The position numbers and the translations under genes were made by a program. Shown piece by piece: positions 41,176-53,324 of a DNA stretch of 64,000 nt (positions are counted from its first letter, which is position 1; each line of letters opens with the position of its first letter). The stretch spans positions 124,001-188,000 of the forward strand of contig NZ_BMDG01000004.1 in the NCBI RefSeq assembly GCF_014635665.1. The letters are read 5' to 3'. This stretch comes from Isoptericola cucumis (lineage in GTDB: Bacteria; Actinomycetota; Actinomycetes; Actinomycetales; Cellulomonadaceae). The notes beneath the pieces are model-generated. The model was not told the DNA's origin. It was given only the letters and a program-made list of their open reading frames with translations, and made no database searches.

Positions 41176-42927
41176 TCAGCGTTCGACGAGCCGCCAGCTC
41201 TCGGCGTCGAAGGCGTCCGGTGTCCGCTCGCCGTCGAGCAGGGTGCCCGAACCGGTCCGGGCGACGACGCCGTCGACGAACACGCCCCGGCCCAGGTAGG
41301 CCGGGTCGGTGGTGGTACGCCACCTCAGCAGGAGGTCGCCGGGCGGCAGGTCCGCTCGCACCTGCGTCCAGCGGCGCGTGCCCGACCCGGCGACCGCACC
41401 GTCGTGCTCGGTCATGCTGCCGCGGTCGCGCACGACGAACGGCAACGGGTCCCACGTCTCGCCGCCGTCGGCGGAGGTCTCGAGGTGCAGCGGGTCGGAC
41501 TCCTCCGTGTCGAGGTACAGGTCGAACCGGAGCCGGGCGCCGTCCGCGGGGACCTGGAGCGCCGTGGTCAGCGTCGACGTCGTGGCGTTCGTGTCCCCGG
41601 AGAACCAGGCGTCGGCGCCGCGGCGCGGCTCGACGCCCTGGGCGTACGCGAGACCGCGCGCCCACTCCCGGCGGGCGATGTTGTTGCTGCCCGAGTCCCG
41701 CGACGGGTGGACCCGGTTCGTGAGCAGGATCGCGAAGGCGTGGGCGTCGAAGTCGATGACCAGCGACGTGCCGGTGTAGCCGGTGTGCCCGGCCGTGCGC
41801 GGCCCGGACATCGCGTCCATGTACCACCGCTGGTCGAGCTCGAAGCCGAGGCCGTGCTCGTCGCCGGGGAACGCGGTGGTGAAGTTGGTGATCATGAGCT
41901 CCACCGACCGCTTGTCCAGGATCCGCTGCTTGGCGTAGCTGCCGCCGTTGAGCAGCGCCTGCGACAGCACCGCCATGTCGTGGGCGGTCGAGAAGATCCC
42001 GGCGTGCCCGGCGACGCCGCCGAGGGACCAGGCGTTCTCGTCGTGCACCTCGCCGCGCACGGCCCCGCGCGGCGGGCTCGCCTGGTACTCGGTCGCGGCC
42101 GTGCGGTCCACCTGGGTGGGGTTGAACCCGGTGTCCGACATGCCGAGCGGCCCGGTGATGCGCTCGGCGACGACCTCGTCGAGGGGCGCGCCCCGCAGCT
42201 CCTCCACGAGCACGCCGAGGGTGATGAGGTTGAGGTCGCTGTACCGGTAGACGGTGCCGGCCGGGTCGTCCAGCGGTTGCGCCATGACCGCGGCGATGCG
42301 CGACTGCTCGTCGGGGTAGCGGCTCCACAGCGGCACCCAGGCGACGAACCCGGAGGTGTGGGTGAGCAGGTGGCGCACCGTCACGTCCTGCTTGCCGCCG
42401 GCCGCGAACTCGGGCAGGTAGGTGGCGACCGGCTCGTCGAGGGTGACCCGTCCCTCCTCGACGAGCTGGACGACCGCGATCGACGTGAACAGCTTCGTCA
42501 CCGACGCCATGTCGAAGATGGTGTCCTCGGCCGTCGGGACCCGCTGGTCCTCGGGCAGGGGCACGCCCTCGTCCCCGAAGGCCACCGCGTACCCGCTGGC
42601 GTCCGTGCGCACCACGTGCCCCTCGTAGCCCATCAGCCCGACGGCGCCCGGGTACATGGCGTACGTCCCGTCGGGCTCGGGGACCTCGTGCGCGCGGACC
42701 TGGGCGACGGCGGCCTCGATCGGTGCCGGGTCGAGGCCGACGTCCGCGGGGTCGGCCTGGCTCAACGTGGTGCGGGGTGGCATGAACTGCACGGGTCCTC
42801 CTTGCGGGTCGCCCGGGGGGACGTCGGTGGCCGACGCGGTCGCGGCGGCGAGGGGTGCGGCCACCAGTGCGGCCACCAGTGCGGCTCCCAGGCCGCCCGC
42901 GGCCAGTGCATGGCTGTCCTTGCGCAT
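41176..42927 (-). CDS. Secreted serine hydrolase (class C beta-lactamase-like)
   Basis: A 583-residue exported protein. The signal peptide has MRKD, a hydrophobic core of about 22 residues and the cleavage site TASA-TD near residue 33. The beta-lactamase/DD-peptidase fold follows with nucleophile SVTK (142-145), the Tyr motif YSDLN (229-233) and the late AGHTGYTG box. After about residue 440 comes a beta-rich domain (LRFDLYLDTEESDP, then WDPLPFVVRDRG) that may bind wall polymers or sugars. Activity may be D-peptidase, esterase or N-acetylmuramyl-related; it is not necessarily a resistance enzyme. A ribosome binding site (GGAAGGA) lies upstream. Confidence 0.88.
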   Translation of the reverse strand: MRKDSHALAAGGLGAALVAALVAAPLAAATASATDVPPGDPQGGPVQFMPPRTTLSQADPADVGLDPAPIEAAVAQVRAHEVPEPDGTYAMYPGAVGLMGYEGHVVRTDASGYAVAFGDEGVPLPEDQRVPTAEDTIFDMASVTKLFTSIAVVQLVEEGRVTLDEPVATYLPEFAAGGKQDVTVRHLLTHTSGFVAWVPLWSRYPDEQSRIAAVMAQPLDDPAGTVYRYSDLNLITLGVLVEELRGAPLDEVVAERITGPLGMSDTGFNPTQVDRTAATEYQASPPRGAVRGEVHDENAWSLGGVAGHAGIFSTAHDMAVLSQALLNGGSYAKQRILDKRSVELMITNFTTAFPGDEHGLGFELDQRWYMDAMSGPRTAGHTGYTGTSLVIDFDAHAFAILLTNRVHPSRDSGSNNIARREWARGLAYAQGVEPRRGADAWFSGDTNATTSTLTTALQVPADGARLRFDLYLDTEESDPLHLETSADGGETWDPLPFVVRDRGSMTEHDGAVAGSGTRRWTQVRADLPPGDLLLRWRTTTDPAYLGRGVFVDGVVARTGSGTLLDGERTPDAFDAESWRLVER

Positions 42928-43168
42928 CGTCAGGGTCCTTCCTGCCTCATGCTGCAGACGTCGGCGGCGGCGTCGTCGCCGTCACCGGAGCGACGGCTCG
43001 GTCGCCGCCGCCGAGGAGCCGGCGCGGCCGCCTCGTCGCGGGCGCGCGGATCCGGGTGTGTGAAAAGTTGCCGTCAAGTGCTGACCACCTGAAAGTTACC
43101 GACGCACCGGTGCGGGGGCAAGGGCGGCGGCGCGGCCGCGGGACGACCGTGGCGCTGCGGCGGTGAGG
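42928..43168. other. Intergenic region between serine hydrolase and attL
   Basis: No credible gene. On the minus strand TTGACG (43077-43072) could be a -35 box for the serine hydrolase gene, but no good -10 hexamer follows at 17-18 bases. The region is ordinary host-like, very G+C-rich sequence apart from an A/T-richer patch at about 43058-43096. Confidence 0.4.
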
Positions 43169-43191
43169 GTGCCCCGGGCGGGATTCGAACC
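43169..43191. other. attL core, 23-bp direct repeat
   Basis: GTGCCCCGGGCGGGATTCGA plus ACC, identical to 53250-53272. It is a remnant of the T-arm and 3' acceptor strand of the minus-strand tRNA; the rest of the tRNA is absent here. Confidence 0.9.
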
Positions 43192-43201
43192 GAGCGGCCC
43201 C

Positions 43202-43338
43202 CGTGGAACCGGGAAGACGCAGGTAGACAGGATATCGGCCTGACCTGCACCGGAGCATTCACCCTGTAGACACTCGCAGACACCCGCGTACTCTCGTAGT
43301 TCCACGCCCAGTTCCACGAGCGGATTTCCCGTTCCACG
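43202..43338. promoter_or_regulatory. Cluster of GTTCCACG sites, likely integrase arm sites (attL side)
   Basis: GTTCCACG occurs at 43299-43306, 43311-43318 and 43331-43338, and inverted (CGTGGAAC) at 43202-43209. Copies recur near attR. Repeats at both element ends just inside the cores are typical of arm-type sites bound by the N-terminal domain of tyrosine integrases. Confidence 0.55.
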
Positions 43339-43368
43339 GCCGGGCATCTAACACGGGAGACGAGCTCT

Positions 43369-44487
43369 ATGGGCAGACGAGATTTCGGCTCGGTCGAGCA
43401 GCTCCCCAGCGGACGATACCGAGCTCGGTACGCGGTGCCCGGCTCGAGGCCGAAGGTGTGGGTGAAGGCGCCCATGACGTTCGAGAGGATCGGCTCGGCA
43501 CGATCCTGGCTCAACCGCCAGCAGGTCGAGATTGAGGACGGCGTCACCCGCCCGCAGACCGTGGCGACGAGGACCACCCTGGGCGAGTACGCCGAGCAGT
43601 GGATCAAGACCCGTCGCAGCGCCAAGGGTGGCCCGCTGAGGGCGACGACCGTCCGCACCTATCGCGGGTACATGTCGAAGCACATTGAGCCCACCCTGGG
43701 GCACCTGGCGCTTCCTGCGGTCACGCGCGAGGTGATCCGGGCCTGGTATGCCGCCCTGCCCGACGAGACCCCTACGGGCAACGCGCGCGCGTACGCCTTC
43801 CTCAAGTCCGTGTGCGCGACCGCCGTTGAGGACGGGCTCATGCCGTCGCAGCCGTGCACCATCCGGGGCGGGTCGTCGTCCAAGCCGAAGACCAAGGTGA
43901 CCGTGGCGACCCCGGCTCAGGTTCGAGCCCTGGCCGACAAGATGCCCGAGCACCTGCAGTTGGCCATCCTCCTGGGCGCGTGGTGCTCGCTGCGCAACGG
44001 GGAGGTGCTCGAACTACGGCGTCGAGACGTCACGCCCGAGAGCATCCGCGTGGAGCGGGGCGTGACGTTCGTCGACGGGAAGGCGATCATCGGCCCGCCG
44101 AAGACGGACGCCGGAGTCCGCACCGTGGCGGTCCCGCCGCACATCTCCGAGGCGATCACCGAGCACCTGGACAAGTGGGTGAACGCCGACGCCGACGCGC
44201 TCCTGTTCGTCAGGGCACCGGGAGACCGGACCAACCTGCACACCAACACGTTCGGCTACTTCACCAAGCAGGCGATCAAGCAGACGGACCTGCCCGCGAC
44301 GTTCCGGTTCCACCACCTGCGGCACTCCGGGCTCACGCTCGCGGCACGCACCGGCGCGACCGTGGCGGAGCTACAGGCCCGGGCCGGACACTCGACCCCG
44401 CACATGGCCCTCAGGTATCAGCACGCCGCATCGGAGCGGGACCGTGCCCTGGCGGATGCGTTGTCGGCGCTGGCCGTCGACAACTAG
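43369..44487 (+). CDS. int: Tyrosine site-specific integrase
   Basis: A 372-residue phage-type integrase. The N-terminus (GRRDFGSVEQLPSGRYRARY) is the arm-site-binding AP2-like domain, residues ~65-150 form the SAM-like core-binding domain (TLGEYAEQWIKTR), and the catalytic domain follows. Catalytic residues are visible: Arg in WCSLRNGEV, His-x-x-Arg in FHHLRHSGLT, His in AGHSTPHMA and Tyr in LRYQHAA. It lies next to attL, as expected, and GGGAG sits 9 bases before the ATG. It should integrate the element into the tRNA-Leu-like gene. Confidence 0.95.
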   Translation: MGRRDFGSVEQLPSGRYRARYAVPGSRPKVWVKAPMTFERIGSARSWLNRQQVEIEDGVTRPQTVATRTTLGEYAEQWIKTRRSAKGGPLRATTVRTYRGYMSKHIEPTLGHLALPAVTREVIRAWYAALPDETPTGNARAYAFLKSVCATAVEDGLMPSQPCTIRGGSSSKPKTKVTVATPAQVRALADKMPEHLQLAILLGAWCSLRNGEVLELRRRDVTPESIRVERGVTFVDGKAIIGPPKTDAGVRTVAVPPHISEAITEHLDKWVNADADALLFVRAPGDRTNLHTNTFGYFTKQAIKQTDLPATFRFHHLRHSGLTLAARTGATVAELQARAGHSTPHMALRYQHAASERDRALADALSALAVDN

Positions 44488-44493
44488 GACCGC

Positions 44494-44756
44494 ATGCTGT
44501 TCCTGGACAAGGTGATCGGGTTCGTCATGGAGTACGACATCTACAACCCGTTCCACTGCAAGTGCGACGACATCATCTCGTTCGTGCAGAAGATCGACGA
44601 GGGCTTCGTGGTGATCTACCTCAACACCGTCGAGGCGCGGAACTACAAGGAGACGCCGCTCCTGCACTGGCCGATTTCTGCGGTTGCCGGCCCGAGGTGC
44701 ACAAGATGCCCGCACAGTTCTACGCCGGTCGTGGAGGCGCGGTGCGGGCGGAATGA
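44494..44756 (+). pseudogene. Small CxC-containing gene with a frameshift
   Basis: The frame from ATG 44494 has good actinobacterial codon use for about 60 codons (MLFLDKVIGFVMEYDIY, later HCKCDD and ARNYKETPLLHW). Near 44673 codon quality collapses, while the frame one base back becomes good and reads DFCGCRPEVHKMPAQFY to a TGA at 44754-44756. A one-base deletion (or sequence error) best explains this. The joined protein would be about 87 residues with two Cys-x-Cys pairs and a His, possibly zinc-binding. Read without the shift, the ORF runs on to 44817. No family recognised. Confidence 0.55.
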
Positions 44757-44829
44757 AGCCGTTTGGCCGTCTCGATCCGAGGCGTGGGCCGACGGTGTGT
44801 CGGTAGCCGTCGTCTAGCGTCTTCACCAG

Positions 44830-44849
44830 ACAACCCAAAACCGGGTTGT
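44830..44849 (+). terminator. Short hairpin between the frameshifted gene and the HTH gene
   Basis: ACAACCC pairs with GGGTTGT across a 6-base A-rich loop and is followed by TGTTC. It could end the integrase transcript before the HTH operon. Confidence 0.45.
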
Positions 44850-44931
44850 TGTTCGAAGATGACGGCGGCCTGCCCCTTCACCGCCAAGATCCAAGGCAGG
44901 CCACCGTGTGAGTGCCCCTGGAGGCATCTAC

Positions 44932-45123
44932 ATGGAATCACAGATTTCACTCCCGGTGTTCCTGTCACCGGTTGAGGCCGCGGTACACGTCGGTGTGTCG
45001 CGGCGCACGATCGATCGCGCTATCGCGGACGGGCAGCTCCCTGCCTACCGCGCGGGCTCACGAGTGGTGCGCATCCGCGTCACCGACCTCGAGGGCTGGC
45101 TGCGACCGATCGAGGCCGCTTGA
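44932..45123 (+). CDS. Excisionase-type helix-turn-helix protein
   Basis: A 63-residue winged-helix DNA-binding protein of the excisionase/MerR type: FLSPVEAAVHVGVSRRTIDR is the HTH, followed by AIADGQLPAYRAGSRVVRI and the wing ending in DLEGWL. Such proteins act as recombination directionality factors or small repressors in integrated elements. ATG 44932 was chosen because GGAGG (44920-44924) lies 7 bases ahead; a GTG at 44908 would add eight unconserved residues. It begins the coupled gene chain of the element. Confidence 0.82.
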   Translation: MESQISLPVFLSPVEAAVHVGVSRRTIDRAIADGQLPAYRAGSRVVRIRVTDLEGWLRPIEAA

Positions 45124-45401
45124 TCACCCGCGAGGTGTACGTGGTCGACGTCTCGTCGACGGATCGGTTCATCGACGAGCGCCACGCTCACTTGCAGATC
45201 GACGACCTGATGCGCGTTGCGCCCCGGGGCTCGAGCGTCCGCCTCGTCGTCGGGCGCACCTGGCCGGTGTTCTCCGCTGCCGAGTTCATGGAGCCCGCGC
45301 CGTATTGGGTCCAGCTCGTGCGGGACCACGCGGTACAGCTCGAGGGCGAGGTGCGCACCGTCCGAGCTTGGATGGCCGCGCTCGAGGGGGTGGCGGCATG
45401 A
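45120..45401 (+). CDS. Hypothetical element protein (93 aa)
   Basis: A 93-residue protein with no recognised family. It begins with TTG overlapping the previous stop (TTGA), and its own stop overlaps the next ATG (ATGA), so it is translated as part of the chain. The predicted fold is mixed alpha/beta (EVYVVDVSSTDRFIDERHAH, then VRLVVGRTWPVFSAAEF, ending in a helix). There is no signal peptide or membrane segment. GTG 45135 is an alternative start. Confidence 0.6.
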   Translation: MITREVYVVDVSSTDRFIDERHAHLQIDDLMRVAPRGSSVRLVVGRTWPVFSAAEFMEPAPYWVQLVRDHAVQLEGEVRTVRAWMAALEGVAA

Positions 45402-46663
45402 CAACCCCCGACTACTTCGCCGTGGACACGTACGACCAGCCCGAAATTCAGACAATCCAGACTCGCCAGCCTGACTCTCCAGTCTCGCCCCGTCTCTCTG
45501 GCATTGGAGAGTCTGGAGAGTCTGGAAAGTCAGGGAAGCCGCCGCGCCTCTACCGGGCCGACGAGCTCAAGGAGGGCACCCCGACCCGCTGGCTCGCCCG
45601 GGGCACCATCCCTCAGGCCGAGGTGTCCGTACTCATCGGGGCGGAGGGCATCGGCAAGAGCTTGTGGTGGGTGCTGGTCGTCTCGTACGTCACCACCGGC
45701 CGGAAGAGCAACCTCCTGGGCATCCCGCAGCGCGAGCCGCGCGACGTCGTCCTCATCCTCACCGAGGACTCGTGGGCCGACGTCCGTGCCCGCCTCGTGT
45801 CAGCCGGGGCGGACCTGGCTCGCATCCGCGTCTTCTGCGAGGACGACGACGGCACGGGCGCACCGACCTTCCCCGACGACTTCGTGTACATCGCGGACGA
45901 GTTGAAGCACAGCCGGCCCGGGCTGATCGTCGTCGATGCGTGGCTCGACACCGTCCGTGCCGGTATCCAGATCAAGGACACCCAGCAGGCCCGGGAAGCC
46001 CTGCACCCGTGGAAGGAGTTCGCCGCCCGATCCGGTGCCGGTGTCCTCCTTCTCGGGCACACGAACCGCACCGACAGCGACGACCTGCGCTCCATGATCG
46101 GGGCGACGGCCGCGCTGAGGCAGAAGGCGCGGGTGCTCTTGTTCGCCATGGCACCCCCGGAGACCGAGGGCGTCCTGTACGTCGGGTCGGAGAAGTCGAA
46201 CCACGCTGGACGGTCGACCGCCACCGAGTACCGGATCGACGTGCAGCAGGTGCGCGAGGAAACGGACGACGACCCCGGCACGGTTCCCCGATTGCGCGTC
46301 GTCGGTGACACCGGCCGCACCGTGCAGGACCACTTCGCTACCTGGCGCAAGCAGTCGAAGGAGGCCGCACGCCCGCAGACCGCGGACGAGAAGGCCGCGG
46401 AATGGGTGAGGGACTACCTCACGGATCGGGGCGGGCAGGCTCTCGCCTCCGAGGTCCAGGAGGCAGCGACGTTCACCGACGTCAACCCGAAGCGACTGCC
46501 AGCCGCGGTGAAGTCCCTGGGCGGGTATGTCGGCCCCGGCGACGGCCCCCGGACACCCCACGTCTACCGCCTGACTCTCCAGACTCTCCAGACTCTCCAG
46601 CTCTCCAGTGATGGGGAACCCGCTGGCGAGTCTGAGATGTCCGATTCCGAGGTGGCCGCGTGA
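45398..46663 (+). CDS. RepA-like AAA ATPase (AAA_25 type)
   Basis: A 421-residue RecA-fold ATPase. Walker A is GAEGIGKS (81-88), Walker B LIVVDAWLD (about 180-188), with a later sensor-like LLLGHTNRTDSDDLRSM. The C-terminal ~90 residues look like a winged helix (LASEVQEAATFTDVNPKR). Proteins of this type serve as replicative helicases or helicase loaders on plasmids and satellites. Its N-terminus (ESGESGKSGK) and C-terminus (LTLQTLQTLQLSS) are encoded by opposed 9-bp repeat arrays. It starts with an ATGA overlap. A role in element replication is inferred. Confidence 0.78.
   Translation: MTTPDYFAVDTYDQPEIQTIQTRQPDSPVSPRLSGIGESGESGKSGKPPRLYRADELKEGTPTRWLARGTIPQAEVSVLIGAEGIGKSLWWVLVVSYVTTGRKSNLLGIPQREPRDVVLILTEDSWADVRARLVSAGADLARIRVFCEDDDGTGAPTFPDDFVYIADELKHSRPGLIVVDAWLDTVRAGIQIKDTQQAREALHPWKEFAARSGAGVLLLGHTNRTDSDDLRSMIGATAALRQKARVLLFAMAPPETEGVLYVGSEKSNHAGRSTATEYRIDVQQVREETDDDPGTVPRLRVVGDTGRTVQDHFATWRKQSKEAARPQTADEKAAEWVRDYLTDRGGQALASEVQEAATFTDVNPKRLPAAVKSLGGYVGPGDGPRTPHVYRLTLQTLQTLQLSSDGEPAGESEMSDSEVAA
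45505..45531 (+). repeat. 9-bp tandem repeat TGGAGAGTC, 3 copies (left array)
   Basis: Two exact units and one with a single change, inside the 5' end of the ATPase gene. An inverted unit (GACTCTCCA) lies at 45473-45481, so local hairpins can form. The array is the reverse complement of that at 46573-46599. Confidence 0.9.
46573..46599 (+). repeat. 9-bp tandem repeat GACTCTCCA, 3 copies (right array)
   Basis: Three exact units inside the 3' end of the ATPase gene, inverted with respect to the left array about 1.04 kb away. Spacing and copy number resemble replication iterons, but no origin has been shown. Confidence 0.9.
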
Positions 46664-46824
46664 TGGCCGGAGCCGCGTTCTTCCAGAAGTCATCCGGCGC
46701 GTGCCCCGACTGCGACGCCGACACCGAGCTCACCACCGACCCGGACTATCCGACCGTCGCGTACCTGACCGTGCGCCACGACGACACCTGCCCGAACCTG
46801 CGGGCGCGAAGGGCGCGACCATGA
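46663..46824 (+). CDS. 53-aa protein with Cys/His zinc-ribbon-like pattern
   Basis: A small gene whose ATG shares its first base with the ATPase stop (TGATG) and whose stop overlaps the next ATG (ATGA). The protein, MAGAAFFQKSSGACPDCD followed by a hydrophilic middle and VRHDDTCPNLRARRARP, contains Cys-x-x-Cys, then His and Cys, which could bind zinc, and a basic tail suited to nucleic acid contact. Coupling on both sides supports a real gene. No family recognised. Confidence 0.65.
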   Translation: MAGAAFFQKSSGACPDCDADTELTTDPDYPTVAYLTVRHDDTCPNLRARRARP

Positions 46825-47033
46825 CCACGACCACGACCGACCTGGACACCGAGGCCCTGATCCTCGAGGGTGCCCGCTCCCACCTCGTCAAGCGGATGCG
46901 ACGACTGAGCTACCGCGTGCACGGCTTCGACCGTGAGGCCATCGACGACATGCACGCCAAGCTCGACACCTTCCGCGACGAGCAGCGAGCACGGCTCGAG
47001 GCGGCACGGGCCGAGAAGTCGGAGAGCGCATGA
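46821..47033 (+). CDS. 70-aa helical charged protein
   Basis: A 70-residue protein, predicted mostly helical: EALILEGARSHLVKRMRRL, then a second helix DREAIDDMHAKLDTFRDEQ and a charged tail. Both ends overlap neighbours by four bases. It lies just before HNH and terminase, where a small terminase subunit is often coded, but no HTH signature is visible and this role is only a guess. Confidence 0.6.
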   Translation: MTTTTTDLDTEALILEGARSHLVKRMRRLSYRVHGFDREAIDDMHAKLDTFRDEQRARLEAARAEKSESA

Positions 47034-47428
47034 CGTACCGAGCGTGCGTGGTCTGCGGAGAGCCGAGCCCCGAGAGCAGGTGTGCCGAGCACCAGCTCCC
47101 CGAGCCCGCCAAGCCGTCGCGAGTCGCACGAGGCTACGACGCGGCATGGCAGCAGCTATCGAAGCGCGCTCGCCGGTTGCAGCCGTTCTGCTCCGACTGC
47201 GGCACGACCGAAGACCTATCGGCCGACCACCTGCCTATCGCGTGGGAAAGGAAGGCAGCAGGTAAGCCGATTCGCTTGCAGGACATCGATGTTGTGTGCC
47301 GTTCCTGCAACGCCAAGCGCGGCCGAGCCCGACCCACGGGGGATGGGGTCGACGCCAACGTTAAGCACCCCTGGTGGAAGGCATCGAGGCAGTTACATAC
47401 CGAGTCACAGAGAGGCGGTGCAGCATGA
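47030..47428 (+). CDS. HNH endonuclease
   Basis: A 132-residue zinc-containing HNH nuclease. Zinc Cys pairs are CVVCGEPSPESRC and FCSDCGTTEDL with CRSCNAKRG; the catalytic core is LSADHLPIAW, with His as general base. HNH nucleases beside the large terminase take part in cleavage at cos sites in HK97-type phages, which suggests cos packaging here. ATGA overlaps are present at both ends. The last ~25 codons use less G+C-rich codons than the host. Confidence 0.88.
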   Translation: MTYRACVVCGEPSPESRCAEHQLPEPAKPSRVARGYDAAWQQLSKRARRLQPFCSDCGTTEDLSADHLPIAWERKAAGKPIRLQDIDVVCRSCNAKRGRARPTGDGVDANVKHPWWKASRQLHTESQRGGAA

Positions 47429-48891
47429 GGGCAGGCCCCAAGAAGGCGGTAACCGCCGAACCTCTGGACTTCTCCCACCTGGGACCAGTGGGCTGGAAGC
47501 GCGTGGATGCATTCGCCCGTGAGTACCTTCTGGTGCCCAAGGGTGAAGGTGCCAAGTCGCCTTTCCGGCTGCGGAAGTGGCAGCTCGATATCGTCCGTGG
47601 GCTGTACCCGATGCGCGGTCAGCGTCCGCGTCAGGGCCTTCTCTCCCTGCCTCGAGGCAATGGGAAGACGGCCCTTGCCGCGGTGCTCGGCGTCTATGGC
47701 CTCTTTGCCGACGACGTCGAGTCTGCTCAGGTTCTCGTCGTCGCCAGCGACGAGCGCCAGGCAGGGCACGTCTTCAAGGCGGCGGCGCGCATGGTCGAGA
47801 TGAACCCGCTCCTTGCCGAGCAGGTGCAGGTCTACCAGGACCGCCTCTACGTGCCGAACACGAACAGCGAGCTTCGGACCCTGCCGGCGACGGTCGACGC
47901 ACTCCAGGGCTGGGACCCGTCGCTCATGATCGTGGACGAGCTGCACGTTGTCACCGAGGCCGTGTGGGACGCCGTGACGTCCGCAGCGGGCAAGCGGCGG
48001 TCATCCCTCACCCTGGCCATCTCCACGCCCGCAGACACGCCCGAGAGCATCATGTGGACCCTCGTGGAGCACGGGCGCGCGGACGACGATCCGGCCTTCT
48101 TCTTCCGCGAGTGGGCGGCCCCTGAGGGGTGCGCGAAGGACGACGAGAAGGCGTGGAAGATCGCCAACCCGGCGCTCGGTGACTTCAAGTTCGTGGACGC
48201 CATGCGCGCCACGATGCGCACGACCCGTGAGCCCGCGTTCCGGCGCTACCAGCTCGGGCAGTGGGTCGGTCAGGCCGAGTCGTGGCTCCCATGGGGCCAA
48301 TGGGACGGATGCTCCGACGCTGGCCGTGAGGTCCGCGACGGGGAGCGCGTCGTCCTGGCGTTCGACGGCTCGGCGTCCGGCGACTCCACGGCCCTCGTGG
48401 GCTGCACCGTGGGCGAGGACCCGCACGTCTTCGTCGTGGACGTCTGGGAAAACCCCGGTGACCGCGGGTGGCGCGTGCCGCGCGAGCAGGTCGACACGTC
48501 GGTCATCGCGGCATTCGAGAAGTACGACGTCGTGGAGCTCGCGGCGGACCCGTGGGGCTGGAGAAGTGAGCTTGAATCGTGGTCCAAGAAGTTCGGAGAG
48601 CGGCGCGTTGTCGAATACAACACCGCCTATGCCGGGCGCATGGCCCCGGCTACGGACAGGCTCTATCAGGCGACCGCTACTCAGGCCATGACGCACGACG
48701 GCGATTCTCGAATGGCCGCGCACGTCGCCAACTGTAAGGCGAAGTCGACTTCCCAGGGTGATCTAGTCACCAAGGACAAGCGCGGTTCACCTCGAAAGAT
48801 TGACGCCGCCGTCGCCGGCATCGTGGCATTCGATAGAGCGGCATTCCATTCCAACAAGACGACCCGAAAGCGAGTAGTGAGTTTCCGATGA
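47425..48891 (+). CDS. Phage terminase large subunit
   Basis: A 488-residue DNA-packaging motor. The ATPase domain has Walker A LPRGNGKTALAA (about 74-85) and Walker B SLMIVDELH; the nuclease domain has VLAFDGSASGDSTALVG (catalytic Asp), VELAADPWGW and KIDAAVAGIVAFDRA, the late Asp of the RNase H-like site. ATG 47425, overlapping the HNH stop (ATGA), is preferred over 47374, which lies inside the HNH gene. No small terminase gene is recognised next to it. Confidence 0.93.
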   Translation: MRAGPKKAVTAEPLDFSHLGPVGWKRVDAFAREYLLVPKGEGAKSPFRLRKWQLDIVRGLYPMRGQRPRQGLLSLPRGNGKTALAAVLGVYGLFADDVESAQVLVVASDERQAGHVFKAAARMVEMNPLLAEQVQVYQDRLYVPNTNSELRTLPATVDALQGWDPSLMIVDELHVVTEAVWDAVTSAAGKRRSSLTLAISTPADTPESIMWTLVEHGRADDDPAFFFREWAAPEGCAKDDEKAWKIANPALGDFKFVDAMRATMRTTREPAFRRYQLGQWVGQAESWLPWGQWDGCSDAGREVRDGERVVLAFDGSASGDSTALVGCTVGEDPHVFVVDVWENPGDRGWRVPREQVDTSVIAAFEKYDVVELAADPWGWRSELESWSKKFGERRVVEYNTAYAGRMAPATDRLYQATATQAMTHDGDSRMAAHVANCKAKSTSQGDLVTKDKRGSPRKIDAAVAGIVAFDRAAFHSNKTTRKRVVSFR

Positions 48892-50213
48892 ACGATCTTC
48901 TCAAGACCCTCTCCGACAAGCTCGACACCACGGCCCCAGCCCTGGCGCGGCTGGACAACTACTACAACGGCACCCAGCCTGCGGCGTTCCTGACCCCGGA
49001 GGCCCGCGAGGCGCTGGGCGACCGACTCAAGGTGCTGAGCGTCAACTTCCCCCGGCTGGCCGTGCAGTCCGTGGCCGAACGGCTCCAGGTGACCGGCTTC
49101 CGGCTCGAGGGCGACCAGTCCGAGCCCGACGCCGCCCTCTGGTCGACGTGGCGACGGAACCGCATGGAGGACGCGGCGGCTCAGGCGCACGTTGACTCCC
49201 TCGTGTACGGGCGTTCGTTCGTGATCGTGTGGGCCGGTGCGAACGGTCAGCCCCTCATCACCGTGGAGAGCCCCCGGCAGGTGGCCGTTCTGCGGGACCC
49301 GGCCACTCGTGAGGTGACGTCGGCGCTCAAGCGTTGGCACGCGGACGGACGCGGTCACGCGGTGCTGTACGGCCCCGACCGGATCACGCGGTACGTGTCC
49401 CAGGCTCGAGTGACGGACAGCGGCTCGCTCCCGTCGACCGGCTGGGACGTCGTCTCGGAGATTCCGAACCCGCTCGGCGTCGTGCCCGTGGTGCCCATCG
49501 TGAACCGAGGCCGTCTGCTCGAGGTGGACGGAGTCTCGGAGATGGAGGACGTGCTGGACCTCGCGGACGCGCTCAACAAGATCATGAGCGACGCCCTGGT
49601 CACGTCCGAGTACTACGCCCGCCCGCGACGCTGGGCCACGGGCCTGGAGATCGTGGAGGACGACGAGGGCAACCCCGTCAAGCCCTTCTCCAGCGCGCTC
49701 GACGACATCTGGCAGGCCGAGGACCCGGCTACGAAGTTCGGGCAGTTCGAGGCCGCCAGCCTCTCCGGGTACGCCGAGCTGGGCGCGATGCTCACCCAGC
49801 AGATTGGCGCGCTCTCCACCCTGCCCCCGCACTACCTGGGGCTGAACGGTGACCAGCCGCCGAGCGCCGACGCCATCCGCTCGGCTGAGGCGTCCCTCGT
49901 CTCCCGGTGCTACTCGCTCCAGCGCACGTTCGGGCAGTCGTGGGCCGACGTCGCCCGCCTCGTCGTGGCCGTCCGCGACGGCGTCGACCCGACGACGCTG
50001 GACGTCGAGACCGTGTGGGCCAACCCGGAGACCCGGACCCCGGCTCAGGCCGCGGACGCCGCTGCCAAGCTCGCGGGCATCGGGATGCCGCTGACCATCC
50101 TCCTGGCCGACCAGCTCGGCATGACCCCGGCTCAGGTCGACCGGGTCCGCGAGGCCATCCGCACCCAGGCACTCGACTCCGCCGGCGTCGACCTCGCCGC
50201 CCTCGCGTCGTGA
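48888..50213 (+). CDS. Phage portal protein (SPP1 Gp6-like)
   Basis: A 441-residue portal subunit, forming the ring through which DNA enters the head. Recognisable are LARLDNYYNGTQPAAFL at the start, SLVYGRSFVIVWAG, the core PNPLGVVPVVPIVNRG, and the long helix region LNKIMSDALVTSEYYARPR before APPHYLG-like LPPHYLGLNGDQP. It overlaps the terminase gene (ATGA) and the MuF-like gene (GTGA), the usual terminase-portal-MuF order of Siphoviridae-type head modules. Confidence 0.9.
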   Translation: MNDLLKTLSDKLDTTAPALARLDNYYNGTQPAAFLTPEAREALGDRLKVLSVNFPRLAVQSVAERLQVTGFRLEGDQSEPDAALWSTWRRNRMEDAAAQAHVDSLVYGRSFVIVWAGANGQPLITVESPRQVAVLRDPATREVTSALKRWHADGRGHAVLYGPDRITRYVSQARVTDSGSLPSTGWDVVSEIPNPLGVVPVVPIVNRGRLLEVDGVSEMEDVLDLADALNKIMSDALVTSEYYARPRRWATGLEIVEDDEGNPVKPFSSALDDIWQAEDPATKFGQFEAASLSGYAELGAMLTQQIGALSTLPPHYLGLNGDQPPSADAIRSAEASLVSRCYSLQRTFGQSWADVARLVVAVRDGVDPTTLDVETVWANPETRTPAQAADAAAKLAGIGMPLTILLADQLGMTPAQVDRVREAIRTQALDSAGVDLAALAS

Positions 50214-50818
50214 CCTACCGCGACGCGCTCCAGGCGCTCAGCAGCGAGACCGAGGCGAAGGTGCTCGCCATCTATGCCGCGTTCTCCGAGGGCAGCATCA
50301 CCTACGACGAGGCAGCAGCAGCCATCGCGGCCGTCGTCGTCAAGGGCAACGCCCGAGCCGTCGCCCTGGCGGACCTGGCCCTGGCCGCGAACCTCATGAC
50401 CGCCCTCAGGAAGCCCGTGGCGACCCTGGGGCTGGCCCTGCCGGACGGCGAGCCCGCGAGGCTCCACAAGGCCGCCACGACGCTCCTGGCGATCCGTGAG
50501 GTGACCCCGGAGCGCGTGGCCCGTCTGGGCCGCGTGGAACCGCTCGAGGCAGGGCAGCGCGCGTTCTCCGAGGGCATCGCTCGATCCGGCTCGGTGGAGG
50601 GCTGGGTCCGCAACAAGAGCGCGAGCGCGTGCCAGCTCTGCACCTGGTGGTCCCGTGACGGTCGAGTCTGGCCAGCAGGTCACCCGATGCCCCGGCACAA
50701 GGGCTGTAGCTGCACCCAGACCATCGTCCACGTCGACCGCGTCCAAGAGACCGCAGCGGGCCGCAAGGAGCGCATCGCCCGCGAAGCCGCGACCAACACC
50801 CGGAGGTACAACCCATGA
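50210..50818 (+). CDS. MuF-like minor head protein
   Basis: A 202-residue protein. The N-terminal helical part (YRDALQALSSETEAKVLAIY) is followed by a C-terminal domain with ACQLCTWWSRDGRVWP and MPRHKGCSCTQ, a Cys/His pattern typical of phage head morphogenesis (Mu gpF/VG15-type) proteins coded after the portal. The role is likely in capsid assembly or DNA ejection. GTG 50210 overlaps the portal stop. It is shorter than most relatives and has no added toxin domain. Confidence 0.8.
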   Translation: MTYRDALQALSSETEAKVLAIYAAFSEGSITYDEAAAAIAAVVVKGNARAVALADLALAANLMTALRKPVATLGLALPDGEPARLHKAATTLLAIREVTPERVARLGRVEPLEAGQRAFSEGIARSGSVEGWVRNKSASACQLCTWWSRDGRVWPAGHPMPRHKGCSCTQTIVHVDRVQETAAGRKERIAREAATNTRRYNP

Positions 50819-51261
50819 CCGTTGAGCAGATCAAGCCCGAGGACGAGGCGACCGAGCCCGTCGAGACCGCGACCCCCGACCTCGAGCAGACCGAGCCCGA
50901 GACACCGGAGCCCACCGAGGACCCGGAGCCGGAGCCAGAGACCTTCCCCCGCGAGTACGTCCAGAAGCTCCGCGACGAGTCCGCCAAGTACCGGCAGCGG
51001 GCAGCCAAGACCGACGAGCTCGCCCACCGTCTCCACGCGGCACTCGTGACCGCCACGGGACGTCTGGCCGACCCCACGGACCTGCCCTACGACGAGGCCC
51101 ACCTGGACGACCCTGACGACCTCGAGCGGGCGATTTCCGACCTTCTGTCTAGGAAGCCGCACCTGGCCAGCCGTAGGGTCGCCGGAGACGTCGGACAGGG
51201 CGCATCGGGCGGCACTGGCGGCGTCAGCCTCGCCGGCCTTCTCCGGGCCGGGGCCGCGTAA
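50815..51261 (+). CDS. Scaffold-like capsid assembly protein
   Basis: A 148-residue protein. Residues 1-45 are Glu/Pro/Thr-rich and disordered, and residues ~48-85 form a charged coiled-coil-like helix (YVQKLRDESAKYRQRAAKTD, then LAHRLHAAL). The short C-terminal end is Gly/Ala-rich. Position directly before the capsid gene and this composition match scaffolding proteins of HK97-fold phages. No protease motif (Ser-His) is seen, so the capsid is probably assembled without a maturation protease. ATGA overlap upstream. Confidence 0.75.
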   Translation: MTVEQIKPEDEATEPVETATPDLEQTEPETPEPTEDPEPEPETFPREYVQKLRDESAKYRQRAAKTDELAHRLHAALVTATGRLADPTDLPYDEAHLDDPDDLERAISDLLSRKPHLASRRVAGDVGQGASGGTGGVSLAGLLRAGAA

Positions 51262-51275
51262 GAGGGGGATGAACG

Positions 51276-51425
51276 ATGGGCCATCGTGAAGAAGCACTGG
51301 TCAACCTCGGTCGGGCCAAGGAAGGGGACTCGAGAGCCCTCGCGCTTGCCCAGGTCTACGCGACGCTGGCAGTTCTCGACGCGGTCGATGCCCTCAATGA
51401 CACGCTGAACAGCACGAGCGAGTAA
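51276..51425 (+). CDS. 49-aa protein between scaffold and capsid
   Basis: A short ORF of 49 codons with a strong ribosome binding site (AGAGGGGG, about 51261-51268, 7 bases before ATG). The protein starts MGHREEALVNLGRAKEGDSR and ends in a helix, ALALAQVYATLAVLDAVDAL, then NDTLNSTSE. It uses TAA, rare in this region, and is followed 16 bases later by a strong hairpin. No family recognised. Confidence 0.55.
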   Translation: MGHREEALVNLGRAKEGDSRALALAQVYATLAVLDAVDALNDTLNSTSE

Positions 51426-51441
51426 TACCCTCCTGGGGTAT

Positions 51442-51478
51442 AGTGAAGGGGTCGGGCCTGGTGCCCGACCCCTTCGCT
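51442..51478 (+). terminator. Strong hairpin just upstream of the capsid gene
   Basis: A 16-bp stem (51442-51457 with 51463-51478, one T-G pair) and 5-base loop. It lies 52 bases before the capsid ATG. It could terminate the upstream operon or stabilise a processed capsid mRNA. Confidence 0.6.
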
Positions 51479-51529
51479 ATGTGGGCCTGGCGTCCAAGCG
51501 TGAATCCCTTCTCACGTCTTGGAGACATC

Positions 51530-52411
51530 ATGGCTATTTCCACCACCACCGCCGCCGAGCTCACCGCCGAGCAGGTTCAGAGCATCCTCGTGCAGCCCCT
51601 CGAGGCCGCGTCCGTCTTCCTCGCTTCTGGCCCGCGCGTCTTCGACACCAACGGCTCGAGCGTCCGCATCCCCAAGCTGGGCGGCGAGACCTCGCCGGGC
51701 TGGGCCGGTCAGAACGCTCAGATCGCTGAGGTGAACCCGGACTTCGACGAGGTCGTGCTCCTGCCGGACACGATGCTCTCGGTCAAGACCCTCACGCGCT
51801 TCTCCAACGAGCTGGCCCGCCAGTCCGTCGTGAGCCTGGACGCGGCCCTGCGTGACCGCCTCGTGCGCGACGTCGCCACGGCGCTCGACAAGGAGTTCAT
51901 CGCGGGCACCACGACCAACGGCACCAAGCCGCTCGGTCTGATCAACTACGCCGACCGTCAGAAGATCACCGGCGTTGGCGCGGTCAGCATCGACGACCTG
52001 CACGACGCTGAGGGCCTGGCCCTGGGCGCGGACGTCGACCCGGCCGGTCTGCGCTGGATGATGAACCCCCGCGACTTCGTCGCCATCCGCAAGCTCAAGG
52101 CGTCCGGCACCGGTGCGTACCTGGTGCAGCCGGACGTGACCGCTGCGGGCGGGTACACGCTCCTGGGCCACCCGGTGACCGTCACGAGCCGCGTGCCCAA
52201 GAACCTGGGCACCGGCACGAACGAGTCCGTCATCGCGCTCTGGGACCCGTCTCAGGTGGCCGTCGCGCGCGACATGGCCCCCTCGGTCAAGATCCTCGAC
52301 CAGACGTTCGGGGACTACGACCAGCAGGCCATCCGCGTCGTGGCCCGCTACGACGCCAAGCCGCTCAACGGCGAGGCCGTCGTCACGCTCGAGGGCGTCA
52401 CGGCCGCCTGA
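51530..52411 (+). CDS. Phage major capsid protein (HK97 fold)
   Basis: A 293-residue capsid subunit. Segments typical of the fold are visible: the N-arm EQVQSILVQPLEAASVFLAS, the E-loop region VRIPKLGGETSPGWAGQNAQ, the long spine helix SNELARQSVVSLDAALRDRL and the P/A-domain MMNPRDFVAIRKLK and LGHPVTVTSRVP, ending with ARYDAKPLNGEAVVTLEGV. There is no N-terminal delta domain, in line with a separate scaffold gene and no protease. ATG 51530 with GGAGA (51521-51525) is preferred; an upstream GTG lies inside the hairpin. Confidence 0.9.
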   Translation: MAISTTTAAELTAEQVQSILVQPLEAASVFLASGPRVFDTNGSSVRIPKLGGETSPGWAGQNAQIAEVNPDFDEVVLLPDTMLSVKTLTRFSNELARQSVVSLDAALRDRLVRDVATALDKEFIAGTTTNGTKPLGLINYADRQKITGVGAVSIDDLHDAEGLALGADVDPAGLRWMMNPRDFVAIRKLKASGTGAYLVQPDVTAAGGYTLLGHPVTVTSRVPKNLGTGTNESVIALWDPSQVAVARDMAPSVKILDQTFGDYDQQAIRVVARYDAKPLNGEAVVTLEGVTAA

Positions 52412-52731
52412 TGGCCGCTCCCACCTCAGAGCAGGTGGCCGCATACCTCGGCAAGGGTGACGACAGTGGCCTCGTCACCCTTGCCGGGCAGCACCTGCCC
52501 ATCGTCACCGCGTTCGTACGGGCCTACGTGCGCGGCAACGGCTTCACGGACAACGAGCCGAACGCCGACCTCGAGGCCGTCGTCGTGTCCGCTACGGCAC
52601 GGCTGACCGCCAACCCGGAGCAGGTCACCCGTCGCCAGCTCGACGACTACGCGGAGAACCCGGCGACGCTCCACGGCTTCACGCTCCCCGAGCTGGCGAT
52701 CCTCCACCTCTACCGCCGACGGGTCGCCTGA
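52411..52731 (+). CDS. Head-tail connector-like protein
   Basis: A 106-residue helical protein. The N-terminus SEQVAAYLGKGDDSGLVTLA and the middle LPIVTAFVRAYVRGNGF with a later DLEAVVVSATARL resemble the small gp6/gp15-type adaptor proteins that sit under the portal. Start and stop share single bases with neighbours (TGATG), a tight coupling. Function is inferred from position after the capsid gene. Confidence 0.7.
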   Translation: MAAPTSEQVAAYLGKGDDSGLVTLAGQHLPIVTAFVRAYVRGNGFTDNEPNADLEAVVVSATARLTANPEQVTRRQLDDYAENPATLHGFTLPELAILHLYRRRVA

Positions 52732-53135
52732 TGGACGCCGCCGGCATGATCCGCAACGGCCGCGCCGTCGCGCTCCGGTACATGAAGGCCACGGGGACCA
52801 CCGTCACCCTGGGCCGCAACACCGGTGCACTCGACCCCGAGACGTTCGACCCGATCCTCACGACCGTCTACAGCGGTCCGGGACGGGTGCAGACGAACGA
52901 GGCCGTCGAGCGTGAAGTGGAAGTCGGCGGGGGAACCGTCGTCGTGCAGCGGTACGCCGTGCACATCCCGGTCGGGGACTTCACTCCGGCGATCAACGAC
53001 GTCGTGACGGTCACCGCGTCCGCGCTCGATGCCAACCTCGTCGGACGGCAGTTCACGGTTCGGTCGCTGCTCCACAAGAGCGCCGCGACCGCATACCGGC
53101 TCGGCGTGGAGGACACCAACGGCTTCGGTGCCTGA
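52731..53135 (+). CDS. Head-completion protein (DUF6093-like)
   Basis: A 134-residue beta-rich protein: GMIRNGRAVALRYM, then YSGPGRVQTNEAVEREVEVG and a C-terminal VVTVTASALDANLVGRQF. The layout resembles phage head-closure proteins annotated as DUF6093, which would be the last neck component before tail genes. Here it is the last gene of the element: a terminator and attR follow and no tail gene exists. The family match is from memory of the pattern and is moderate. Confidence 0.65.
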   Translation: MDAAGMIRNGRAVALRYMKATGTTVTLGRNTGALDPETFDPILTTVYSGPGRVQTNEAVEREVEVGGGTVVVQRYAVHIPVGDFTPAINDVVTVTASALDANLVGRQFTVRSLLHKSAATAYRLGVEDTNGFGA

Positions 53136-53169
53136 CCAAGTCCGTAGCGGGCTGACGTCCCGCACGGCT

Positions 53170-53202
53170 AGGCCCCGGTCCCTCACGAGGGGGCCGGGGC
53201 CT
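53170..53202 (+). terminator. Hairpin terminator at the right end of the element
   Basis: A G+C-rich stem of about 15 bp with one bulge (AGGCCCCGGTCCC... pairing with ...GGGCCGGGGCCT), 34 bases after the last gene of the element; it ends with a TTAG. Confidence 0.65.
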
Positions 53203-53204
53203 TA

Positions 53205-53223
53205 GTTCCATGTAGGTTCCACG
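53205..53223. promoter_or_regulatory. GTTCCATG/GTTCCACG pair, likely integrase arm sites (attR side)
   Basis: GTTCCATG at 53205-53212 and GTTCCACG at 53216-53223, 26-46 bases inside attR and matching the cluster near attL. Confidence 0.5.
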
Positions 53224-53249
53224 ACTCTGCATCGTCGCTGGTCAAGTGA

Positions 53250-53272
53250 GTGCCCCGGGCGGGATTCGAACC
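53250..53272. other. attR core, 23-bp direct repeat
   Basis: Identical to 43169-43191. It forms the 3' end of the intact minus-strand tRNA, so integration restored the gene. Confidence 0.9.
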
Positions 53273-53324
53273 CGCACTGGATCGGGTTTGAGCCGATTGC
53301 CTCTGCCGGTTGGGCTACCGGGGC
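53251..53324 (-). tRNA. tRNA-Leu(CAA)-like, 74 nt, short variable loop
   Basis: Read from 53324 downwards, the acceptor strand GCCCCGG pairs fully with CCGGGGC, the D-arm begins GCCCAACC, and the anticodon stem ATCGG/CCGAT closes the loop CTCAAAC with anticodon CAA. The T-arm is GCGGG-TTCGAAT-CCCGC and the discriminator base is A; CCA is not encoded. The variable loop has only 5 bases (CCAGT), whereas leucine tRNAs normally have a long variable arm, so the amino acid identity is uncertain. The 3' half is the integration site. Confidence 0.85.

Follow-up and report, generated by a model that had tools for sequence, protein, structure and literature searches.

We analyzed a 64,000-nt stretch of the Isoptericola cucumis genome (4.46 Mb; RefSeq assembly GCF_014635665.1, contig NZ_BMDG01000004.1, positions 124,001 to 188,000; hereafter the window) and found in it an element that is probably a capsid-forming phage satellite, one which would fill a small head of its own and take its tails from siphophages. 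The element spans positions 43169-53272, measures 10,081 bp from start to start and has a tRNA-Leu gene as its seat. Proteobacteria and Firmicutes are the hosts in which such satellites are best known, and the family described here would extend them into actinobacteria, with relatives from soil, skin, dairy and mycobacteria. A preliminary description of the window, drawn from its letters, had already read the element as an actinobacterial member or relative of this class, and conserved edges, the lack of a recognised tail module, recurring head genes and purifying selection all support this. The packaging (cos) site and a phage-like stopper, the tail-docking end of the head, are results beyond that description.

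Boundaries of the element and of its relatives

The 23-bp att core at 43169-43191 is repeated exactly at 53250-53272, as had been described, and the right-hand copy forms the 3′ end of a tRNA-Leu(CAA) gene (53250-53324, minus strand). Sister genomes of the genus lack the insertion at this site, most clearly L140, in which window positions 42916-43132 match 1212-1464 and the tRNA begins at 1501; in L139 and L141, shorter left-flank matches lie no more than about 300 bp from the tRNA. Among 18 genomes of the genus, the capsid gene is present only in the host's own. Arm-type integrase sites, which had been reported at the right end, were found near both edges: the motif GTTCCAYG starts at 43299, 43311 and 43331 at the left (GTTCCACG, three copies within 43299..43338, plus strand) and recurs at 53205 and 53216 at the right (two copies within 53205..53223, plus strand), with a count of 8 in the whole window versus 3.1 expected. 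The supposed terminator at the end of the operon fared less well, in that a strong hairpin does lie there (53162..53207, plus strand, z −4.1) but has no T run and is absent from the terminator-scan output.

To place the element among its kin, relatives were collected by capsid scans of viral contigs, which gave 59, and by an alignment-based scan, which gave 129, 80 of them being kept, making 95 distinct loci. These carry a portal (94), the terminase large subunit (TerL; 90), a scaffold (94), the head-tail adaptor Ad1 (78) and the HNH endonuclease (76), and 93 of the 95 lie on contigs of at most 14.1 kb. Two longer contigs were considered as tailed kin and rejected, because the sequence of L022 repeats itself at 10.35 kb and L048 runs into another integrase. 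In genomes, the capsid scan found 40 loci in actinobacteria, in Mycolicibacterium, Mycobacterium, Nocardioides, Cryobacterium, Rhodococcus, Janibacter, Oerskovia, Nesterenkonia, Arthrobacter and other genera. Of these 40 loci, 16 are flanked on both sides by a perfect repeat no shorter than 21 bp, which in 13 cases lies at a tRNA gene (for Ser, Val, Lys, Pro, His, Met, Thr or Leu), and in 15 of the 16 the two repeats are 8.4-11.3 kb apart. The exception, L089 (16.1 kb), was rejected as a cargo-bearing variant since it contains a second, truncated capsid gene. As for the remaining loci, two have 17-bp repeats only and the others none, some being interrupted by contig ends. Bracketing repeats were also found in four further genomes of the host order (L169, L171, L172 and L173). 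Across 396 genomes of that order, the capsid profile matched 18 at E ≤1e-20 and 8, the host's own included, at E ≤1e-100. The preliminary description had proposed a search for the same gene order at other actinobacterial tRNA sites and had taken the clean right end as an argument for a selected boundary, and conservation of the boundaries had been set beforehand as a test; the bracketed loci agree with it.

A second test set beforehand asked whether relatives carry a tail module to the right of the last head gene, still inside the att repeat, and the scans described next found no such relative. For the right-side scan, 50 out of 63 proteins from 18 bounded elements (13 short ones being dropped) were taken together with 2 window proteins, 52 in all, and this returned head closure, Ad1 and connector families, while the right-flank scan took in 98 of 173 proteins, on the plus strand only, at 24 further loci and returned connectors and apparently host genes; no tail family appeared among the best 25 of 34 families in the former or the best 25 of 59 in the latter. 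A scan of the left side covered 94 proteins, 3 from the window and 91 out of 109 from the relatives, and placed the window's HTH_17 protein in PHROG 66. An endolysin-like match among the right-flank proteins was set aside, as it falls in the C-terminal peptidase domain of a 457-aa protein of L097, outside the head genes; this protein matches endolysins and, via that domain, tape measures.

Variation within and around the family was also seen. L167, in one of the genomes of the host order matched by the capsid profile, holds two tandem head-to-tail copies on one chromosome, with a unit of 9,752 bp and 99.96% identity over 8,927 bp. Two Rhodococcus elements of 8.4-9.1 kb (L068 and L071) have another layout, with a capsid, TerL after the capsid and no portal found, and in L101, L106 and L127 the capsid gene lies on the strand opposite to portal, TerL and HNH. 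L061 encodes an Ad1 with a long N-terminal extension (L061:10836-11759) with a weak minor-tail-protein match (E 5e-4), most relatives having an Ad1 of ~105 aa. Distant capsids (about 24-28%) occur in att-bounded elements of 9.0-9.6 kb in L176, L178 and L179; because these capsids are far from the family, more than one kind of head-coding satellite occurs in the host order.

A head module without a recognised tail, under purifying selection

By assigning gene families with Pfam and PHROGs, we recovered the gene content given in the preliminary description: integrase, HTH_17, AAA_25, HNH, TerL, SPP1-type portal, scaffold, HK97-type capsid, Ad1 and DUF6093. All genes indeed run in the same direction (plus strand), with 4-base overlaps at nine junctions and 1-base overlaps at two. 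The head and packaging module starts with the HNH endonuclease gene (47030..47428), which is backed by PHROG 144 (E 8e-10) and reaches only E 0.06 in Pfam, and continues with terL (47425..48891; PHROG 9, E 3e-94; PF03354, PF20441), whose nearest terminases in a phage collection, at 35%, are those of phages related to phiC31. Next come a portal of SPP1 gp6 type (48888..50213; PF05133, E 1e-41), a 202-aa protein (50210..50818), a scaffolding protein (50815..51261; PHROG 233, E 9e-5), the major capsid protein of the HK97 fold family (51530..52411; PF05065, E 2e-41), Ad1 (52411..52731; PHROG 137, E 9e-6), which belongs to the same family as the Ad1 of Arthrobacter phage Hestia, and, as the last gene, the head closure or stopper protein (52731..53135; DUF6093, PF19586, E 6e-26). 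The stopper falls in PHROG 13779, the family of the annotated Hestia head-to-tail stopper. The label MuF that had been given to the 202-aa protein was not borne out, as the protein matches no Pfam or PHROG family and is placed, like Hestia gp4, at the MuF/protease position.

No tail, lysis or protease family was matched by any element protein in Pfam or PHROGs, in keeping with the absences reported before, so the element differs from an intact tailed prophage in its unmatched tail and lysis modules. Run on Hestia as a positive control, the same library picked up its tube, tape-measure and minor tail proteins and missed the terminator and chaperone. Selection was assessed by comparison with the close relatives L002 and L005, which gave dN/dS values of 0.07 and 0.14 for the capsid, 0.26 and 0.23 for the portal, 0.17 and 0.30 for the stopper, and 0.18-0.27 for Ad1; TerL gave 0.19 versus L005, L002 having no TerL. 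As judged from these ratios, the head genes are under purifying selection.

A predicted packaging site between hnh and terL

Next, we inspected where the free contigs end. A contig end at the hnh/terL junction was found in 8 of 63 metagenomic contigs versus 1.05 expected, with a P of about 1e-5 that assumes uniform contig ends and windows picked after the ends were known. L005, L026, L043, L130 and L133 share one homologous start base, at a GGC...-type motif 33-44 bp before terL that occurs in integrated relatives too, and the right ends of L002, L005 and L026 fall at a homologous point about ten bases before this shared base. L132 also opens with this motif, here about 300 bp ahead of terL, and L044 is likewise permuted, with its ends offset by some tens of bases. 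Projected on the element, the left ends of the five former contigs and the right ends of L002, L005 and L026 flank positions 47370..47379, a predicted cos overhang, about 10 nt long, within the 3′-terminal part of the HNH gene; directly after it, at 47380..47401 on the plus strand, lies the conserved motif of the left genome end (GGC...GTTACA), the first bases of the free linear contigs. The about ten bases missing at both contig ends would then be a 3′ overhang lost in library making.

Given this predicted cos, L005, L026 and L132 would be whole genomes of 10,073, 9,847 and 9,732 bp, respectively. Since linear genomes of ~10 kb end between HNH and TerL, as for cos, monomers of ~10 kb are probably packaged, and the cos ends in metagenomes suggest that particles are made in nature. 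A genome of about 10 kb is near the small end for a head of the tailed-phage type; scaling simply by volume from a T=7 head with 39.7 kb, a T=3 head would hold about 11 kb. Two other relatives, L131 and L084 (the latter a contig of its own in the isolate Arthrobacter sp. MYb227), have terminal repeats that mark them as circles, so that members of this family turn up in circular as well as in cos-ended form.

The stopper resembles those of tailed phages

To find the nearest kin of the stopper, viral contigs were scanned with it, and besides satellites this returned L182-L185 at 70-71% and L186 (43,944 bp) at 59% identity. In L182, L183, L184 and L186, Hestia-like neck and tail genes continue past the stopper; L185 ends at the stopper, with head genes about 100% identical to those of L183, and bears the same metagenome number as the satellite L026. 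Within the host family, the stopper was detected at E ≤1e-8 in 13 of 221 genomes, the host's own included and one in the same genus. Five of the 13 (the prophages L210-L214) were examined, and a tape-measure match lies beside the stopper in all five; the window stopper is 43-61% identical to theirs. The other head genes gave a different picture against L182-L186 and L210-L214. Where the genes are present, the portal reaches 28-32% and TerL 24-33%, the capsid matches only L184 and only in part (123 residues at 28%), and Ad1, the scaffold and the MuF-position protein have no match. As a control, the stopper of the tailed phage L183 is 40-58% identical to those of L186 and L210-L214, the same range as the satellite stopper, and its portal reaches 45-54% versus L211-L214 and its Ad1 41-62%. 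By these identity ranges, the satellite stopper behaves as a tailed-phage stopper, whereas the other head genes do not.

Stopper types were then tabulated over 144 entries, which are rows, some being one element from two collections: 59 are PHROG 501-like, the majority type, 7 are DUF6093 (one of them the window again), and none was detected in 78, many of which are incomplete. The other type occurs even in close kin, namely L003 (TerL 90%, capsid 98%), L026 (TerL 89%, portal 85%) and L070 (TerL 78%), whereas the kin L002 and L005 carry the DUF6093 stopper, which indicates that the stopper is exchanged within the lineage. As judged from these comparisons, in the sub-lineage of the window, L002 and L005 the stopper would have been exchanged with tailed phages, in either direction, and the rest of the head not.

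Some stopper genes depart from this arrangement. The stopper of L070 (L070:11193-11954) and those of L003, L004 and L026 carry an extra N-terminal domain of about 140 aa, and the L070 model (pLDDT 88) resembles the carbohydrate-binding modules CBM35 and CBM6 (Foldseek E about 1e-3), so this domain is perhaps an adhesin at the neck. In L010, L012, L015 and L063, a DUF6093-like gene lies between the portal side and the scaffold and not after Ad1.

Proposed mechanism and alternative explanations

Taken together, these results suggest the following course. Upon siphophage infection, the element would excise and replicate from iterons around repA, and a small head would be built from its own head genes. 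TerL and HNH would cut cos between hnh and terL and place one ~10-kb genome in each head. The finished head, with no tail of its own, would offer through its stopper a tailed-phage surface and join a phage-made tail, by which, we infer, a helper would transfer the element. On the likeness of the stopper, the helper is likely a siphophage of the group formed by contigs L182-L186 and prophages L210-L214, the prophages being in the host's own family and one of them in its genus. Tail recognition by tail-less heads thus becomes testable with a single gene and a concrete helper group.

A broader proposal, which we put forward tentatively and at somewhat less than even chances, is that satellites of ~10 kb throughout actinobacteria pack cos-ended monomers and track their tail donors by swapping the stopper alone, so that the helper can be read from the stopper. 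If so, the stopper would be drawn from the lineage of the current helper with the remaining head staying satellite-specific, and the helper of an uncultured satellite would be identifiable.

Several observations weigh against the satellite reading or its extension. Against Hestia the ranking is inverted, with 39% identity for the portal and 34% for the stopper, and the small stopper tree is weakly supported, with no starred branches. Among the 396 genomes of the host order, the PHROG 501-like stopper was found in satellites only, and two viral-contig scans gave no relatives of it; repeating the stopper analysis with this type therefore failed in both collections, and because no tailed phages with a PHROG 501-like stopper were found there, stopper matching is not a general rule. 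The host genome has neither a PF10145 tape measure nor an L183-type tail tube, and its only PF05133 portal is the element's own, so a helper would come from outside. The capsid has best matches of <30% identity in the 50,697-record phage collection, in which the element has no close DNA match either, and thus no helper there shares its head. Finally, no small terminase subunit was identified in the element.

The likeness of the stopper may alternatively reflect a shared ancestor, or capture of the gene by tailed phages from satellites, and would then be uninformative on the helper. The direction of exchange cannot be read from the stopper tree and phages are mosaic, which leaves this explanation a real though minor chance; against it, the satellite stopper lies within the identity range of tailed-phage stoppers with the other head genes far outside, and the DUF6093 proteins of other satellites (L014, L045 and L116) are only 22-27% identical to the window stopper. 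The possibility that the element is a self-sufficient minimal virus, entering through an unrecognised short tail or a neck adhesin, draws on several small genes without known function, on the extra stopper domain with its resemblance to carbohydrate-binding modules, and on the extended Ad1 of L061. We consider it improbable, since in the window element the extra domain is missing and the stopper is the last gene, Ad1 and stopper at its end make up a docking surface for a separately built tail, and no lysis gene was recognised. A decaying prophage that lost its tail and lysis half, as the ordinary phage order of the head cassette and decayed relatives (the fragmentary head region of L097, the truncated second capsid of L089) might suggest, is very improbable and largely refuted by the same right edge at different tRNA genes in many genera, a capsid with no tailed relative above 30% identity in the 50,697 phage records, head genes under purifying selection and cos-ended whole genomes in metagenomes.

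Further features of the element

The remaining features, all on the plus strand, lie mostly at the left. The tyrosine integrase (372 aa; 43369..44487; PF00589, E 6e-14; PHROG 1, E 6e-54) is followed by a doubtful 107-aa open reading frame (ORF; 44494..44817), which matches nothing in Pfam, PHROGs or PADLOC and may for this reason be no gene at all. The HTH_17 protein (44908..45123; PF12728, E 2e-10), an excisionase or AlpA-like regulator, matches PHROG 66 (E 2e-9), a family of excisionases and regulators; it is the only element protein to match such families in Pfam and PHROGs, and no Stl-like regulator was recognised there. The RepA-like AAA ATPase (45398..46663; PF13481, E 6e-19), 99% identical in L002, probably has a replication role. 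The two ends of repA carry one 9-bp unit in opposite orientations: three copies of TGGAGAGTC (45505..45531), putative origin iterons, lie close to the start, and four copies of the inverse unit GACTCTCCA (46573..46608) lie shortly before the end. These repeats may mark the origin.

Three small proteins have no assigned function, namely one of 93 aa (45120..45401; 68-77% identity in L002, L005 and L026; dN/dS 0.23-0.37), one of 54 aa (46660..46824; 94% identity in L002) and one of 70 aa (46821..47033; 92% identity in L002), the last of which evolves fast, with dN/dS of 0.66-0.81 in four more distant comparisons. A 49-aa ORF (51276..51425) gave no match at E 0.01. An 18-bp hairpin (51439..51481, z −5.4) sits in the only longer intergenic gap, just 5′ of the capsid gene, and perhaps serves capsid dosage control. 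PADLOC found no defence gene among 7 element proteins.

Comparison with known systems

Capsid-forming phage-inducible chromosomal islands (cf-PICIs) make their own capsids (PMC10803314) and carry genes for capsid, portal, HNH, terminase, head-tail adaptor and closure, with no tails (PMC13230959); they operate in the manner proposed here for the element. The element resembles them in having its own capsid, portal, terminase, HNH and head-tail connector genes, in that no tail genes were found in it, and in its integration in the chromosome with an integrase and att sites. It differs in size (about 10 kb versus a cf-PICI mean of 14 kb) and in having a scaffold but no recognised protease or Stl-like regulator.

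The candidate PICIs of Mycobacterium, including phiRv1 and phiRv2, are small, carry integrase and capsid at tRNA sites, in some cases with terminase, scaffold and helicase, and were proposed to be mobilizable satellites (Abad et al., 2023, PMC10654092). Our element shares with them an integrase and a major capsid protein in one small region, in a host other than Mycobacterium, and its relatives include Mycolicibacterium and Mycobacterium loci. The survey was restricted to Mycobacteriaceae and, in its available sections, has no packaging site or tail-interface comparison. A survey of actinobacterial prophages had also suspected small elements to be satellites (PMC10023795). MulchRoom and MiniFlayer, Streptomyces satellites of virulent helpers, were seen as particles in lysates; MiniFlayer is apparently non-integrating and has its own tail adaptation, and no obvious replicase was reported by the authors (PMC10690885). 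Like these, the element would be an actinobacterial satellite with its own capsid and packaging genes; for its part, it is integrated and has a RepA-like ATPase.

With the Hestia-like siphophages (Hestia, L182-L186 and L210-L214), the element shares the TerL-to-stopper order and the stopper and Ad1 families, whereas those phages carry tail genes and have capsids that match the element's only in part and at no more than 28%. Hestia has the order TerL, portal, protease, scaffold, decoration, capsid, connector, Ad1, stopper, followed by one small gene, tail terminator, tail tube and tape measure; because its neck and tail genes begin directly after the stopper, the element stops at the head side of the neck. 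In the literature searched, which covered few subscription papers, we found neither the family's packaging site nor a stopper exchange described, nor the family itself in hosts other than Mycobacterium. The cf-PICIs and mycobacterial candidate PICIs are prior art, and the packaging site and the likeness of the stopper to those of tailed phages are the new results.

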